A stretch of DNA of 64,000 nt from contig NZ_QASA01000001.1 of assembly GCF_003340495.1 (NCBI RefSeq), positions 1,922,001 to 1,986,000 on the forward strand, written 5' to 3'. A program made the position numbers and the translations under genes. This document shows positions 48,499 through 55,136 of this stretch, in pieces. Under the pieces are notes generated by a model. It was not told the DNA's origin, did not search any database, and saw nothing but the letters and a program-made list of their open reading frames with translations. How positions within the stretch are numbered: the stretch's first letter is position 1; each line of letters starts with the position of its first letter. Origin of the DNA: Adhaeribacter pallidiroseus (GTDB taxonomy: Bacteria; Bacteroidota; Bacteroidia; Cytophagales; Hymenobacteraceae).

Positions 48499-50502
48499 TT
48501 ATATTCTCCTGGTTGGATGAATATCAATGCGGTCGCCGAGCATTATCCGAAGATTGGCTAAATCGGAAGGGTTATCTTCTATTTCGTTAGTTTTATCTAC
48601 TATTTCCCGGATAATCAGGTCTAAGTCGTTGGTTACAGTAAGTAAATTCGTTAATACTTCCAGGTTGAAGGGATCGGTTAAATCCTGGTAATTAAACGCG
48701 TTTACTAAGCCTAAAATATTGGCAACAGGTACCCGTACTTTATGCGATTGAATCCAAGCAATTTCTTTCAGCTTTTCATTTTGTTCCTGAATTTTAATCT
48801 GGTGCCGTTTATTCTCGGTTATATTTCGGGAAAAACAACCAGTACCGGTAATCCGACCATCGCGGTCCCGGATGGGATTAAAACTTATTTCGTAATAGGT
48901 TACCGTATTATCAGCATTAATCTCTTTATCTTCTACCGAATAAATTTCGCCTTGAAATGCTCTTTGGTACAGGTCAAGCCATTTATTTACCAATTCGGGG
49001 TTAGATTCCGGATATATTACGCTATCGCCTTTTTGCAGCGTAATACCCATAACTTGAGACATTTTAGTGATAAAAGGTTTGTTAGCCGATATTAATTGGT
49101 ATTTGGTATTAACCGACCAGATGAGCGCACTTGGGTTATTAATAAGCGCGTTTAAGTTTTGAGCATCTTCAAAGTCTTTTTCCTGGGCCTTTTTTTCCTG
49201 GGTAATATCTTGAAAATATACGGTTAAACCATCGGGAGTAGGATAAGCCGCCACTTTGAACCAAGCCTGAAAACGCGGATAGTATTCTTCAAAGTGTACT
49301 TTTATTTGCTCCTGCATGGATTTTTGAAATTCACTATGAAAAAGCAGGGAAACAGATTCCGGGAATTGCTCCCAAAACGAAGTTCCCATTATATTTTCGC
49401 GTTTGCTGTAAAGCAAACGCTCAAATTCTTTATTTACGTAAGTGAAATTCCAGTTTTTGTCAATAGCGCAAAAACCATCCGTTATGCTCTCCAAAATATC
49501 GTGGATTCGTTGAGTATATTCTTCAATCTTTGTTTGCGATTCTACTTCTTCCGTAACGTCCCGCCCCATTCCTTGCAGCTCCGTGATTTTTTCTTTAGCC
49601 GCTTTTATGGCCACAAACTCCCACTGTATAAGAACTGGCTTACCCTGACTATTTACTTTGTGAAGCATAATAGGTACTACTTTATCGGGTTGCTGCAAAC
49701 ATTGGTGGATAAGTTCTTGAACTTGTCCCTCTTCTTCGGGCAGCAGGTCGGTTAAAAAAGATTGGGTTAAGATGTATTCTAATGAACAGTTAAGTTTTTG
49801 ACAAAAAGCCGGATTAACAAAAGTATACTGGCCTAACGTGTCGATGCGAATCAGAAAAGTTGTTTGCGAATCGATGATAGAACGTAAATAGCGTTGTTTT
49901 TTTTCTAAACGATTGTTTAATACCCTGTTTTCCTGTTCGGCCTGAATGATAGGAGTAATGTCGAAGGCCATAACCAACCGAGCTAGATGCCCCTGGTATT
50001 CCGTAGAATTGGAATAAATTCGTACATAAAATAACTCACCGCTTTTACGCTGGTGGCACCAAATGCCACTTTTAGAGTAAGTGGGTATATCTTCTTGTAA
50101 TCTATTTTCCAAGGCCCCAATACTCTCCTGCGGACGAATTTGTTTGATAGTCATCTGCAGCAGTTCTTGCCGGGTATAGCCATATTCCACTACCATGGCT
50201 TGGTTTACTGCCAGTATACACAACGACTCCTTATCGTAAAACCACATCGGATTGGGATTGTCATCAAACATTTGTCGAAAATGCTGACTATCCGGATGAT
50301 TTTTTAAAAAATTACGATGAATAAAAACGTAAAAAATCAAAGCCGTGGCAACAACAAAGAAATACCCTGTCCATTGATCTAACCTAAAAATTTGTGGTGG
50401 GTCAAGCTGATAGATGACATTTATTTTCTGCAGCGCCCAACCACTCCATGTAATCCAGCCTAAACCTAACAGCAAATAAATTAACGCAATTCTCCTTGCC
50501 AT
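48499..50502 (-). CDS. Multi-PAS sensor protein with HisKA-like box but no ATPase domain
   Basis: 667 residues. Two N-terminal membrane helices (about 5-25 and 45-62), then four PAS units (starting near 75, 205, 335 and 450; FRQMFDDNPNPMWFYD, IIDSQTTFLIRIDTLG, ILESITDGFCAIDKNW, LINNPSALIWSVN), each with a FxDIT/RDVT-type end. The C-terminus has an H-box-like helix EIAWIQSHKVRVPVANILGLV followed by only about 60 residues; the HATPase_c N, G and F boxes are missing. It can sense but probably cannot phosphorylate itself; it may act with a partner kinase. The end at 48499 is a clear stop, not a run-off. Confidence 0.85.
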   Translation of the reverse strand: MARRIALIYLLLGLGWITWSGWALQKINVIYQLDPPQIFRLDQWTGYFFVVATALIFYVFIHRNFLKNHPDSQHFRQMFDDNPNPMWFYDKESLCILAVNQAMVVEYGYTRQELLQMTIKQIRPQESIGALENRLQEDIPTYSKSGIWCHQRKSGELFYVRIYSNSTEYQGHLARLVMAFDITPIIQAEQENRVLNNRLEKKQRYLRSIIDSQTTFLIRIDTLGQYTFVNPAFCQKLNCSLEYILTQSFLTDLLPEEEGQVQELIHQCLQQPDKVVPIMLHKVNSQGKPVLIQWEFVAIKAAKEKITELQGMGRDVTEEVESQTKIEEYTQRIHDILESITDGFCAIDKNWNFTYVNKEFERLLYSKRENIMGTSFWEQFPESVSLLFHSEFQKSMQEQIKVHFEEYYPRFQAWFKVAAYPTPDGLTVYFQDITQEKKAQEKDFEDAQNLNALINNPSALIWSVNTKYQLISANKPFITKMSQVMGITLQKGDSVIYPESNPELVNKWLDLYQRAFQGEIYSVEDKEINADNTVTYYEISFNPIRDRDGRITGTGCFSRNITENKRHQIKIQEQNEKLKEIAWIQSHKVRVPVANILGLVNAFNYQDLTDPFNLEVLTNLLTVTNDLDLIIREIVDKTNEIEDNPSDLANLRIMLGDRIDIHPTRRI

Positions 50503-50664: not shown

Positions 50665-52638
50665 TTACTTGATTAAAGTTACGGATCCTTTCCGCTGAAT
50701 AAGGTTTCCGTTAAGGTCCTGAGCAGTAAATGAGTAAACGTAAGTACCTACGGGCGCATCTTGGCCGTTTATTTTACCGTTCCAGCCTTCATTAGGGTTT
50801 TTACTTTCAAATATAATTTGGCCCCACCGGTTGTAAATTTTAAGGTTCAAGGTTTGTATAAATTTTCCTTTTAGCTCAAAAACATCATTTAACCCATCGT
50901 TATTAGGGGAAAAGGCCGTAGGAATAAAGGCGGAAAAATTTTGAGCTATTACTACTTTGTTGGAGTAACTAATTTCGCCTGGGTTAGCCGAAGTAACTTT
51001 TATGCGGTAGGCCAATATTTGGCTGGCAGTATTTAATTTGCTGTCGATAAATGTGGTGTTGCTTCCTACTGCAAACGAACCAAGCAATTGACCGGTAGCC
51101 TCATCAGATACTTCAACGGTATATTGAGGTACGAGAGTAAAGCCTATATAGGCCGACCAACGTAAATTTACCCGGTTCTCTGCGGAGTTAAATGTTCCGT
51201 TCAACATTGTTGGACAAGCTTGATTGCTCAAAGCCGAAATTAGTCCACAAGGATCGGTGTAAGTGGCCTGGTAGCAGGGTGGTTCGTTTTCTTTAAACTT
51301 TGCTTCATCCAGAAAGGTATTTTGTTTCGTGCTTCCTAGGTTCATAAAAGGCCTGTTATTCATTTTTTTTTGCCAGTTTGCATCTTGCGCTGTTTCCTGG
51401 GCCGCTGGTTGTAATCGTAATTCTACCTGATTTTGCAGATTGTAAGAAGCTACCAGCAATCCGGCTTTTGGTGGTTTGGTAGCTATTACCTTTTGGCAAG
51501 TATCGTTTGAAAACGACGACTGATTATTCTGAAGGACTACCTCTAGGCGGTAACAATATTGTTGCCCGCAGGTCACGACTTCATCTACAAAGGAGGTGAT
51601 TAAAGCTGGTAGAGTTTTAATTAATTGAGCATCACGGTATATCTGGTAATTTCTTACTGCTGCTGAAGGATAAAGGGGCCAAGTTAATTGATTGGTTTTA
51701 TTCTGCGTAGTTACCCCCAAAGGCTGGGTAGTTAAAATATTCGAAAAAACGTTGGTATGGGTACGGCAACTATCAGAAACTTGTAAGCGGTACTGGTAAA
51801 CGGTGCGCGTATCTATTTGATCTACGATTATCGTACGGCTATTATCTCCCAAAGCGGAATTTATACGTTTAACTTCTCTGAAATTGTTTGAATTTACGGG
51901 AGCTTGCTCCAGAAGGTAACTATAGCCACCCTGTAGTTCTGCTTTGATCTCCAACTTGCCCGATTCTTTAGAATAATTGTTGATAGCAATGCTGGTTAAG
52001 TGGGGAATCTTCATCTCATTTAAAGGTGGTATTTCCAGAGAGTTTTCCGTTATGCACAAGGCATTCCTAAAGATTCCTTTTACCGTTAATTGAAATAAAC
52101 CGGCTTTCTGATACTGGTACGTTGTGTCTTTACCGGGTAGTACTCGTAGCTCCGTACCATCGCCAAAGTTGACGCGGTAATAATCATAATGGGTGTCGGT
52201 TATTCTAAAGTTTACTTTATAAAAAGCGCAGGCAAATCCTGTAAGGGTAGGTGGGGGAGTATCTAATACGGTGAATGTTCGCTCAAATTGGTTATTCCCG
52301 GGTAAGCCGGTATTAATTAGTTGTGTAACGGTATAGGTACCGGGTGCGCTATAAGTAACACTTTTAACAGTATCCGGGAAAGCCAAACCATCATTTTTGT
52401 TAGTATCGTAGTACTCCTTATCTGGTTGCGCGTTGGCCGAACACGATTTAAACCGGATTTTTTCACCTACACAAAAAGTATTTACTTCAGCTCCATTGGC
52501 ATGGTATGCCTTAAATTTATCCGGGCAGGGGTTGGTTTGCGCGGGTACATTTTTACTAATTACTAGTTGCAGTAAAATACATAACCAGAAAATTTTCGAT
52601 AAGTTACTTACTGGCAACACTGGCATACATAAACACAA
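50665..52638 (-). CDS. PKD/fibronectin-like secreted protein with type IX sorting domain (type B)
   Basis: 657 residues; start at 52638 or, more likely, at the third Met (52626, MPVLPVSNLSKIFWL), which gives a signal peptide ending near NVPAQ. A PKD-like domain follows (YSAPGTYTVTQLI), then fibronectin-type repeats (about 220-560), and the C-terminal gliding-motility-associated domain FIPTAFSPNNDGLNDVFELKG, IYNRWGQIIFES, WNGKINGQDAPVGTYVYSF. This is the type B signal for type IX secretion and cell-surface attachment. Function of the body is unknown; adhesion is a guess. Confidence 0.9.
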   Translation of the reverse strand: MCLCMPVLPVSNLSKIFWLCILLQLVISKNVPAQTNPCPDKFKAYHANGAEVNTFCVGEKIRFKSCSANAQPDKEYYDTNKNDGLAFPDTVKSVTYSAPGTYTVTQLINTGLPGNNQFERTFTVLDTPPPTLTGFACAFYKVNFRITDTHYDYYRVNFGDGTELRVLPGKDTTYQYQKAGLFQLTVKGIFRNALCITENSLEIPPLNEMKIPHLTSIAINNYSKESGKLEIKAELQGGYSYLLEQAPVNSNNFREVKRINSALGDNSRTIIVDQIDTRTVYQYRLQVSDSCRTHTNVFSNILTTQPLGVTTQNKTNQLTWPLYPSAAVRNYQIYRDAQLIKTLPALITSFVDEVVTCGQQYCYRLEVVLQNNQSSFSNDTCQKVIATKPPKAGLLVASYNLQNQVELRLQPAAQETAQDANWQKKMNNRPFMNLGSTKQNTFLDEAKFKENEPPCYQATYTDPCGLISALSNQACPTMLNGTFNSAENRVNLRWSAYIGFTLVPQYTVEVSDEATGQLLGSFAVGSNTTFIDSKLNTASQILAYRIKVTSANPGEISYSNKVVIAQNFSAFIPTAFSPNNDGLNDVFELKGKFIQTLNLKIYNRWGQIIFESKNPNEGWNGKINGQDAPVGTYVYSFTAQDLNGNLIQRKGSVTLIK

Positions 52639-53752
52639 TCGTTTTCCGGATTAATTCGTCAAAATCAGCTTCCTTTAAAACGGCAATTACTTGCTTTCGG
52701 TATGTAGCCTGAAGATTTGCTGTTACATTTAGCGTATTAGCCGGGTTAATAGCCTTAGTTAATTGCACCAGAGTGGTTATTGCCATTTTTTTTTCTAAAT
52801 TTTTTAAAAAAAAGAAAGGCTGCAACATCAGTTGGTTGGTAAAAGCAGTAGATGGGCCGGAATGTGAGTCAAAATCGCCTTCAAACAAAAAGAAGCTTTC
52901 CTGATGAAGTACTTTTATTAAGGTAAGCAGGTGGGCGGAGTTTGTTGAAATTTGGTTGTTTAAAGCAATGGAAAAAGATTCGTTCGTTCTTGGCTGCGCT
53001 AAATTTTCCAGAATATATTCACCGAATTTAAAAAATAATTTTACTACCTGATACATTAAGCCGTTTACGGGTTTTGACTGCGCTTCCGGGAAAGTTAAAA
53101 AGCTGTTCAACTGGTGTTCCAAGTGTTCCAACTGCTCTGGGTATAGATTTCCGGAATCGGTTAATAGGTCAACAGGAGGTAAAAGCACTTCGGAATAGCT
53201 GACAAGTTTTTTAAGCTGTATAAAAGAGTAAATTAAATTACTTAATCCCAGGAAAGAAGTTGAGGTAAGGGCAAGTGGCAAATCTTCCGGCCAGGGTATA
53301 GGTTGCCAACTAAATATGTCGTGCACATCGGCGGCTTTTAATAAATAACCTTGGTAATACACTTTGCCAACGCCAAATACCGGTAAGATTAAATGAGCAG
53401 CAGGAGAGGTATAAAGTCCTTGACTGAAAACCTGGGGTAAAACTTCATAATCGTAAAATTCCAGGATTCGGGAAATAATTTGCAAACTATTTGCAATTGG
53501 GTTTTTAAAGACAAAATCGGCCAGCAAGACAAGCATTAAAGGTGTTAGTTCGGCCGGAGTTTCCGGGCCTAATCCTATGGCAAATGCTTGCAGTTCGGCG
53601 GATGTTATTGCTTCTTGCGTGTTGAGAATATCGGATTTTGAATTTCCATTAAGGTCAGGCGAAAAGGTAACGCTTATTTGTTTCGCCAGAATCTGTTGAA
53701 TTGCCTCAACTGTAAGTGGTTGATTATGTTTAATCGAAAATACGCGTTCCAT
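52604..53752 (-). CDS. Degenerate HAL/PAL-like (aromatic amino acid lyase fold) protein lacking the MIO triad
   Basis: 382 residues, no signal peptide. I see distant likeness to histidine/phenylalanine ammonia-lyases: QPLTVEAIQQILAKQISVTFSP (HAL N-terminal strand), AFAIGLGPETPAEL (HAL GVGPPLP-E), RILEFYDYEVLPQVFSQG (HAL LLNAGVHPVVP-SQG), AHLILPVFGVGKVYYQG (HAL AHLALVLIGEGE-Y-G). The Ala-Ser-Gly stretch that forms the MIO cofactor, and the residues around it, are missing: SQG is followed by LYTSPAAHL. The protein is also shorter than the usual about 500 residues. It starts 1 bp after the hisS stop, so the two are coupled. Alternative: an unrelated helical protein. Confidence 0.5.
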   Translation of the reverse strand: MERVFSIKHNQPLTVEAIQQILAKQISVTFSPDLNGNSKSDILNTQEAITSAELQAFAIGLGPETPAELTPLMLVLLADFVFKNPIANSLQIISRILEFYDYEVLPQVFSQGLYTSPAAHLILPVFGVGKVYYQGYLLKAADVHDIFSWQPIPWPEDLPLALTSTSFLGLSNLIYSFIQLKKLVSYSEVLLPPVDLLTDSGNLYPEQLEHLEHQLNSFLTFPEAQSKPVNGLMYQVVKLFFKFGEYILENLAQPRTNESFSIALNNQISTNSAHLLTLIKVLHQESFFLFEGDFDSHSGPSTAFTNQLMLQPFFFLKNLEKKMAITTLVQLTKAINPANTLNVTANLQATYRKQVIAVLKEADFDELIRKTIVFMYASVASK

Positions 53753-53753
53753 T

Positions 53754-55136
53754 TTAAAGGGCTAACCTCTTGATAATTTCTGCTAGCGGAAGGCTTTCTT
53801 GCTCGCCAGTACGCATATTTTTAAATTTCAACTGACCCGATGTTATTTCTTCGGAGCCGATCAACAATACGTAAGGTATTTTTTTCTGATCAGCGTAGGT
53901 CATTTGCTTGGCTAATTTTACCTGATCGGGATACAGTTCCGTGGCAATACCGGCCGCCCGCAATTGTTGCAAAATAGGCAAAGCATAAGCTTCAGATAAG
54001 CTATCGAAGTTGGTAAGCAGTACTTGCGTGCTGGTTTGCACCGACTCCGGAAATAACTGTAATTCTTCCAGTACATCGTATATCCGGTCGACGCCAAAGG
54101 AAATGCCCACGCCGGATACATTGGGCAGGCCAAACATACCCGTCAGGTTATCGTAACGACCACCACCCGATATGCTGCCCATTTGCACATTGTTTACCTT
54201 AACTTCGAAAATACAGCCGGTGTAGTAGGAGAGACCCCGGGCCAGCGTGGGATCAATCTTAACATTTTTTAAAGCAACTCTATTTATAGTTTCTACATAG
54301 TTTCTTACTTTATCAATTTCTAAATGGCCAATTTGAGTGTTCTGATTATCAAATTGATTTTTGATTATTTCCGGAATAGCATTAATAGTCTCAATACCAA
54401 AATCTGTATAAGATAATAAAGTGTGCAGTTTGGCTACTTCTTCAGCAGGTATGCCTTTAGTTAATAATTCTTTTTTAACTCCTTCAACTCCAATTTTATC
54501 AAGCTTATCAATAGCTACATAAAAATCCACTTCACGACCCTTTTGACCAATAATCTCAGCTATACCTTCTAAAATTTTACGGTGGTTAATCTTAATGGTG
54601 AAATCCGTTATACCTAAACTGGTAAAAACCTCATCAATCATCAGTACAATTTCGGCTTCGCAAAGTAAGGATTTGGTACCTACTACATCAGCATCGCATT
54701 GATAAAATTCGCGATAACGGCCACGTTGGGGTCGATCGGCGCGCCACACCGGTTGAATTTGGTAGCGTTTAAACGGAAAGGTAATTTCGTTGCGGTTCAT
54801 GACCACGTACCGGGCAAAAGGCACGGTTAAATCGTACCGGAGGGCTTTCTCCGAAATTTTCCGGAGTAAATGTTTGCTGCCCAGTTCATAATCGGCAACA
54901 GTAGTTTTGGCCAGGTAATCGCCGGAGTTCAAAATTTTAAAAATTAACTGGTCCCCTTCGTCGCCGTACTTCCCGGTAAGTACCGAAAGATTTTCCATGG
55001 TTGGCGTTTCCAGCGGCTGAAAGCCAAACTTACGGAAAGTTCTTTTAATAGTGTTAAAAATATAGTTACGCTTTCCCACTACTTCCGGACTAAAGTCGCG
55101 GGTTCCTTTAGGAAGGCTGGGTTTTTCTTTACTCAT
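53754..55136 (-). CDS. hisS: Histidyl-tRNA synthetase
   Basis: 460 residues, full length. Class II motif 1 region at the start (KGTRDFSPEVVGKRNYIF), motif 2 in YQIQPVWRADRPQRGRYREFYQCDADVVG (segments), the histidine-specific LARGLSYYTG, and motif 3 GISFGVDRIYDVL, followed by the anticodon-binding domain (LLTNFDSLSEAY to the end). Charges tRNA-His in the cytoplasm. Upstream region 119 bp with the terminator of the preceding gene's partner; downstream the HAL-like gene begins after 1 bp. Confidence 0.97.
   Translation of the reverse strand: MSKEKPSLPKGTRDFSPEVVGKRNYIFNTIKRTFRKFGFQPLETPTMENLSVLTGKYGDEGDQLIFKILNSGDYLAKTTVADYELGSKHLLRKISEKALRYDLTVPFARYVVMNRNEITFPFKRYQIQPVWRADRPQRGRYREFYQCDADVVGTKSLLCEAEIVLMIDEVFTSLGITDFTIKINHRKILEGIAEIIGQKGREVDFYVAIDKLDKIGVEGVKKELLTKGIPAEEVAKLHTLLSYTDFGIETINAIPEIIKNQFDNQNTQIGHLEIDKVRNYVETINRVALKNVKIDPTLARGLSYYTGCIFEVKVNNVQMGSISGGGRYDNLTGMFGLPNVSGVGISFGVDRIYDVLEELQLFPESVQTSTQVLLTNFDSLSEAYALPILQQLRAAGIATELYPDQVKLAKQMTYADQKKIPYVLLIGSEEITSGQLKFKNMRTGEQESLPLAEIIKRLAL

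Follow-up and report, generated by a model that had tools for sequence, protein, structure and literature searches.

What keeps the gene of an enzyme in place once its product can no longer do the enzyme's chemistry? The question is raised by a locus of Adhaeribacter pallidiroseus, a soil bacterium of the Hymenobacteraceae (order Cytophagales), within a stretch of 64,000 nt (assembly GCF_003340495.1, contig NZ_QASA01000001.1, positions 1,922,001 to 1,986,000), here called the window. An earlier note on this DNA had described one product of the locus as a catalytically dead protein resembling histidine ammonia-lyase (HAL), coupled to hisS and perhaps a sensor of histidine use. The three HAL-like stretches that it named are all present in a 382-aa ORF on the minus strand, and the spacing of a single nucleotide is borne out, with hisS ending at 53754 and the ORF starting at 53752. 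At the other end of the ORF, the likely ATG of the CHU_C gene (52626-52624, as read from the sequence) lies within the final pseudo-HAL codons, giving a 23-nt overlap. The features of the locus are collected in Table 1.

Table 1. Features of the pseudo-HAL locus, in window positions
Feature	Position	Strand	Basis
Pseudo-HAL, MIO-less descendant of histidine ammonia-lyase, 382 aa	52604..53752	-	PF00221, AlphaFold model, site residues, selection
MIO-loop scar, codons 112-113 (G-L); intact relatives have five more residues, including part of Ala-Ser-Gly	53414..53419	-	Alignments
Well-kept segment, residues 95-151	53300..53470	-	Alignments and predicted structure
hisS, histidyl-tRNA synthetase, 460 aa	53754..55136	-	TIGR00442, 408 bits against a cut-off of 286.75
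Protein with PKD and CHU_C (type IX secretion sorting) domains	50665..52626	-	PF13585, E 5.2e-19; PF00801, E 4.5e-6

A lyase fold without its active site

The window protein descends from histidine ammonia-lyase, and the likeness is not a matter of chance. Residues 47-190 match PF00221 (E 4.8e-11; 42.4 bits, the curated cut-off being 27.3), the top chain in a PDB sequence search is 1b8f, itself a HAL (E 0.0034), and an AlphaFold2 model compared by VIA-align has the HAL/PAL fold over nearly the whole chain, with the helical bundle of HAL retained. The profile match and the fold confirm the HAL/PAL-like identity proposed in the earlier note; instead of an unrelated fold, the model gives that of HAL. 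With HutH (PF00221, TIGR01225) the protein shares common descent, predicted fold and the gene position of the family's living HALs. It differs from HutH in length (382 vs about 498 aa), in its missing MIO triad and site residues, and in its score against the NCBIfam hutH model (E 1.7e-5, 23.5 bits), which is far under the equivalog cut-off of 539.15. It also differs in its setting: its genome has no urocanase match and no hutI above cut-off.

How much of the active site is left? The alignment used here holds 99 HALs, 45 of them from urocanase-bearing genomes (40 from the family and five from outside) and the rest from urocanase-less family genomes. All 45 of the former keep each of the 12 site residues examined, and the window protein keeps none of the 12, the MIO triad included. 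In the numbering of the P. putida enzyme, Ala142 and Ser143 fall within a five-column gap, Gly144 has become Leu and Asp145 Tyr; Gln277, Tyr280, Arg283 and Phe329 are all gapped. The pocket is likewise not intact, since the equivalents of Tyr53, His83, Asn195 and Glu414 are a gap, Phe, Ser and a gap. The seven other Adhaeribacter genomes encode the same type of protein (377-390 aa) and, because these also lack a triad, no local sequence error is hiding one. Thus, the loss of Ala-Ser-Gly claimed in the earlier note stands, and the intact triad that a corrected sequence might have revealed is not there. For the Geobacillus HAL, PMC11432326 gives the equivalents of these site residues and reports that the Y52F, H82L, N194D and E411D variants are each without activity.

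The window gene is an orthologue of the Hymenobacteraceae HAL that has turned pseudoenzyme: a homologue of an enzyme that lacks the catalytic residues and is kept as a protein by selection, with a non-catalytic function that is predicted.

Loss of the pathway, retention of the gene

Is this an oddity of one genus? A PF00221 gene is present in all 200 sampled Hymenobacteraceae genomes, most of which come from two genera. Urocanase is found in 146 of the 200. The hutI profile matched something in every genome and was counted only when above cut-off, which leaves hutI in 144 genomes, two urocanase-bearing ones (G143 and G145) having a partial hutI only, and in none of the 54 that lack urocanase. 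All 54 nevertheless retain a HAL-derived gene. In 34 of them this HAL is triad-less, and every one of the 34 dead copies sits in a urocanase-less genome; the 34 are the eight Adhaeribacter copies and 26 others chosen for a weak HAL score (in G093, a weak second copy). The triad is missing in 34 of 34 dead family copies and present in 20 of 20 other urocanase-less copies and 45 of 45 urocanase-bearing ones. The 20 also have strong HAL scores, and 18 of them keep all 12 residues (G146 has one change and G210 a shifted N-terminus). The best PF00221 E-values are 1.6e-175 or lower in urocanase-bearing genomes, of which 106 from the family were judged from this score alone, and 7.9e-143 or weaker in dead copies. 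Since the dead HALs and the 20 triad-bearing HALs are all without urocanase, it seems that the pathway is lost first and the chemistry later, while the protein stays.

The 20 genomes that combine a triad-bearing HAL with a lack of urocanase and of any above-cut-off hutI (L050, L053, L095-L112), in which the HAL appears from its residues to be catalytically complete in 18 cases, include a starred four-species clade (G054, G178, G200, G210). Urocanate may be the end product where a HAL persists without the rest of the pathway. Remnants of hutI occur as stop-containing pieces (G153:C1:599621-600375), as partial matches (G143, G145) and as a split gene (G207), and look like ongoing pathway loss.

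Other Cytophagales families served as a control. Among 137 of their genomes, 63 are without urocanase, and 43 of these 63 have no PF00221 gene at all, so that retention is 54/54 in the Hymenobacteraceae vs 20/63 in the control (Fisher p 8e-17, relatedness ignored). Thirteen of the 20 PF00221-bearing control genomes score 1e-152 to 1e-168 and may hold another lyase subfamily. The exceptions are G027, G221, G236 and G288 (one genus) and G312, which score as true HALs, G228, which has a fragment, and G300, with a HAL in three pieces, two of them with a stop. Hence, outside the Hymenobacteraceae, loss of the pathway takes HAL along often, not always.

Repeated loss under purifying selection

HAL has died more than once in the family. 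The lesions of the triad vary: five residues are missing in Adhaeribacter, and other lineages have Ser replaced by Tyr or Phe, loss of Ser only, Ala-Gly-His-Asp, or other deletions. In the 99-HAL alignment, different parts of HAL are missing in different dead lineages. On a quick hisS tree (91 rows, 29 dead), the dead state changes 12 times, with at least four changes forced by starred branches. On a quick hisS and CHU_C tree (92 rows, 32 dead), drawn without G204 (shifted frame) and G211 (a locus without hisS and CHU_C), there are 10 changes, at least six of them forced in this way; this tree splits the eight Adhaeribacter into two groups. We read the changes as losses because regaining a lost triad is unlikely.

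The dead copies are under purifying selection on the protein. In 20 pairs of dead copies, hand-chosen, with lineages shared between pairs and dS of at least 1 in seven, NG86 omega is 0.083-0.450, and in all 20 even the lowest of that pair's 60 neutral simulations (medians 0.70-1.18) exceeds the upper bootstrap limit. For the window gene against G003, omega is 0.245 (bootstrap 0.163-0.348), a rough value given a dS of 1.56. All 561 dead-dead pairs had been computed first, with poor start codons in a few GC-rich frames (G187, at 117 codons, has omega 0.44-0.74 in six listed pairs), and the starts were rechosen before the 20-pair analysis. Among the 32 pairs with the lowest dS, tabulated from the 561, the dead HAL mostly has a higher omega than hisS and, if the G187 pairs are disregarded, an omega that in most cases does not exceed that of CHU_C. 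Frames are open in 33 of the 34 dead copies (that of G206 is cut by a contig end). The frame of G204 is shifted, so that some lineages may be able to do without the gene; an assembly error is also possible, the G204 genome being a draft in about 450 contigs. All eight Adhaeribacter frames are open, and neither the broken frame nor the relaxed selection of a pseudogene is found.

The hisS-HAL-CHU_C gene row

Which neighbour goes with HAL, dead or alive? In 94 family genomes, with distances taken from stop-to-stop frames so that overlaps are approximate, a CHU_C frame follows HAL at a distance of up to 700 nt in 93, the remaining locus ending 1.1 kb past HAL. Upstream, hisS could be scored in 92 of the 94: it is no farther than 600 nt in 76, at 0.6-3.5 kb in 14, and in two, both with a dead HAL, it was not seen within about 7 kb. 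The distance is 0.8-2 kb in eight dead genomes, and the gap between hisS and the pseudo-HAL is -4 to +2 nt in all eight Adhaeribacter. The CHU_C gene is therefore the steadier neighbour (93/94 vs 76/94). The coupling to hisS stressed in the earlier note is thus mostly kept, but it was inherited from living HALs, is sometimes broken and is looser than that to CHU_C. As a specific partner hisS is weakened, because the link is shared with living HALs and looser than the CHU_C link.

Among 25 HALs from other families, a CHU_C frame adjoins in six and hisS in four. Two genomes of another Cytophagales family, G225 (L197) and G254 (L198), have HAL followed by a CHU_C frame, with hisS absent. The pair of HAL and CHU_C looks separable from the link to hisS.

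What the dead copies keep

In the eight Adhaeribacter proteins, residues 109-162 are best kept (mean identity 0.53-0.58). Identities were compared with those of 25 of 59 living HALs; G206, G211 and G204 (contig ends, shifted frame) were omitted from the structure alignment and from the identity and retention analyses, and G210 from the intact set in the latter two. Over residues 136-162, identity is 0.58 in Adhaeribacter vs 0.70 in the living HALs, and over residues 217-297 it is 0.25-0.32 vs 0.86-0.88. The poorly conserved residues 1-27 (0.33 vs 0.39) retain as large a share as residues 136-162. Thirty-four columns are invariant in the eight Adhaeribacter proteins, 19 of them within residues 95-151, a segment with predicted strands at 104-112 and 130-139 and helices at 116-126 and 140-146, followed by F147-S-W149-Q-P151.

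Q134, Y136, L138, F147 and W149 are kept by the majority in every one of the 12 dead groups, which together comprise 31 copies. Y136, L138 and F147 are typical of Hymenobacteraceae HALs and rare outside the family, at 0-16% in 25 such HALs. This kept cluster hints, at the level of sequence, at a binding patch. It is only a hint because mean retention in the dead groups is 0.55 for the 19 family-typical columns vs 0.45 for universal columns; with no clear enrichment over 19 columns, the family-typical residues do not, in our view, prove that there is a second function. The head segment may have been kept as a requirement of the fold only.

Why is a dead lyase kept?

The window protein is probably a pseudoenzyme whose non-catalytic role goes back to the time before the family's HAL died. 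HAL in the Hymenobacteraceae, mostly in the hisS-HAL-CHU_C row, would already have had this second role, in which the head segment (residues about 95-151), next to the former active site, would most likely bind a partner protein. In a lineage that loses hutU and hutI, HAL chemistry would no longer be needed; the MIO loop and pocket would go, in many lineages with at least a fifth of the chain, and selection would retain the fold and the head segment. The chances seem even that the Hymenobacteraceae HAL as such is a two-job protein, combining its chemistry with an indispensable non-catalytic role tied to the gene row, and that the pseudo-HALs do the second job alone. Two candidate partners, each proposed tentatively and each rather doubtful, are HisS, which in Adhaeribacter is translated just before the pseudo-HAL, and something that serves the adjacent CHU_C protein.

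Could the gene instead be carried along by its operon? An inert protein might have its frame kept only via co-translation with hisS and CHU_C, where the gene downstream would suffer from a stop or frameshift. The tight hisS junctions in Adhaeribacter, the nearness of CHU_C in 93 of 94 family genomes and the apparent overlap of its start with the pseudo-HAL end in the window all fit this idea. However, it predicts an open frame, not kept amino acids, and omega is 0.08-0.45. The gene can also be missing: other families have 43 HAL-less genomes, and in eight of the 20 examined a CHU_C frame directly follows hisS. The row works without HAL there, and HAL is therefore not kept merely as operon glue; we regard an inert passenger as unlikely. 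It is very unlikely that we see a slow pseudogene, one that gave up catalysis not long ago, owes its low omega to the time when it was still active and is now disappearing. Decay is indeed staggered, because the triad persists in 20 of the 54 genomes without urocanase (with all 12 residues in 18), and frames are shifted in G204 and G210. The omega pairs, however, are dead on both sides and mostly share one lesion, so their divergence postdates the loss; dS reaches about 1.9 with an omega of 0.14 (G001-G007), and the eight Adhaeribacter genomes are all dead yet open in frame.

The earlier note suggested a sensor or regulator of histidine use, linked to histidine or HisS. The proximity of hisS speaks for it (76 of 94 family genomes within 600 nt, and the -4 to +2 nt of Adhaeribacter), but the histidine-binding pocket residues are gone, none of the 54 genomes has urocanase or hutI above cut-off, and among the dead genomes eight have hisS at a distance of 0.8-2 kb and two showed no hisS in the roughly 7 kb upstream. 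With pocket and pathway both lost, we rejected this as the leading idea and consider it quite unlikely; the pseudo-HAL may have a new binding site. Enzyme folds are often reused, and the helical bundle is retained in the model, so the trimmed fold might have adopted another reaction. That is highly improbable: there is no clear new polar cluster, the old head holding 19 of the 34 invariant columns and 11 of the 15 others being non-polar, and the dead lineages have lost different parts.

How does a pseudoenzyme with an older second role compare with known cases? Pseudoenzymes in general (reviewed in PMC10211241) likewise keep a fold, lose a catalytic motif and remain under selection in sequence; the difference is that here one enzyme died several times within one family and was kept every time. 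Among the matches listed in our literature searches there was no MIO-family pseudoenzyme and nothing on MIO-less HALs. Delta-crystallin, which derives from argininosuccinate lyase (fumarase-like fold), belongs to another family with another chemistry, and its change took place in the animal eye lens, after gene sharing or duplication rather than pathway loss. Repeated death with repeated retention amounts to a natural experiment that separates catalysis from the other roles of HAL. If the reading as a pseudoenzyme with an older role is true, the family's HAL does something else as well, not yet described, whose outline the retained parts of the dead copies reveal, and annotating a Hymenobacteraceae PF00221 protein as a lyase would call for a prior look at its MIO triad.

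Other observations

In G093 (L061 / L131), where the hisS-linked HAL is dead, a second lyase with a triad (in GSVGASGDLVQLAH) lies in a 14-kb locus without a hisS match. In the window, the minus-strand gene at 48499-50502 encodes a 667-aa protein that by eye resembles a multi-PAS protein, with a C-terminal kinase-like H-box (SHKVRVPVANILGL) and no ATPase domain visible beyond it.
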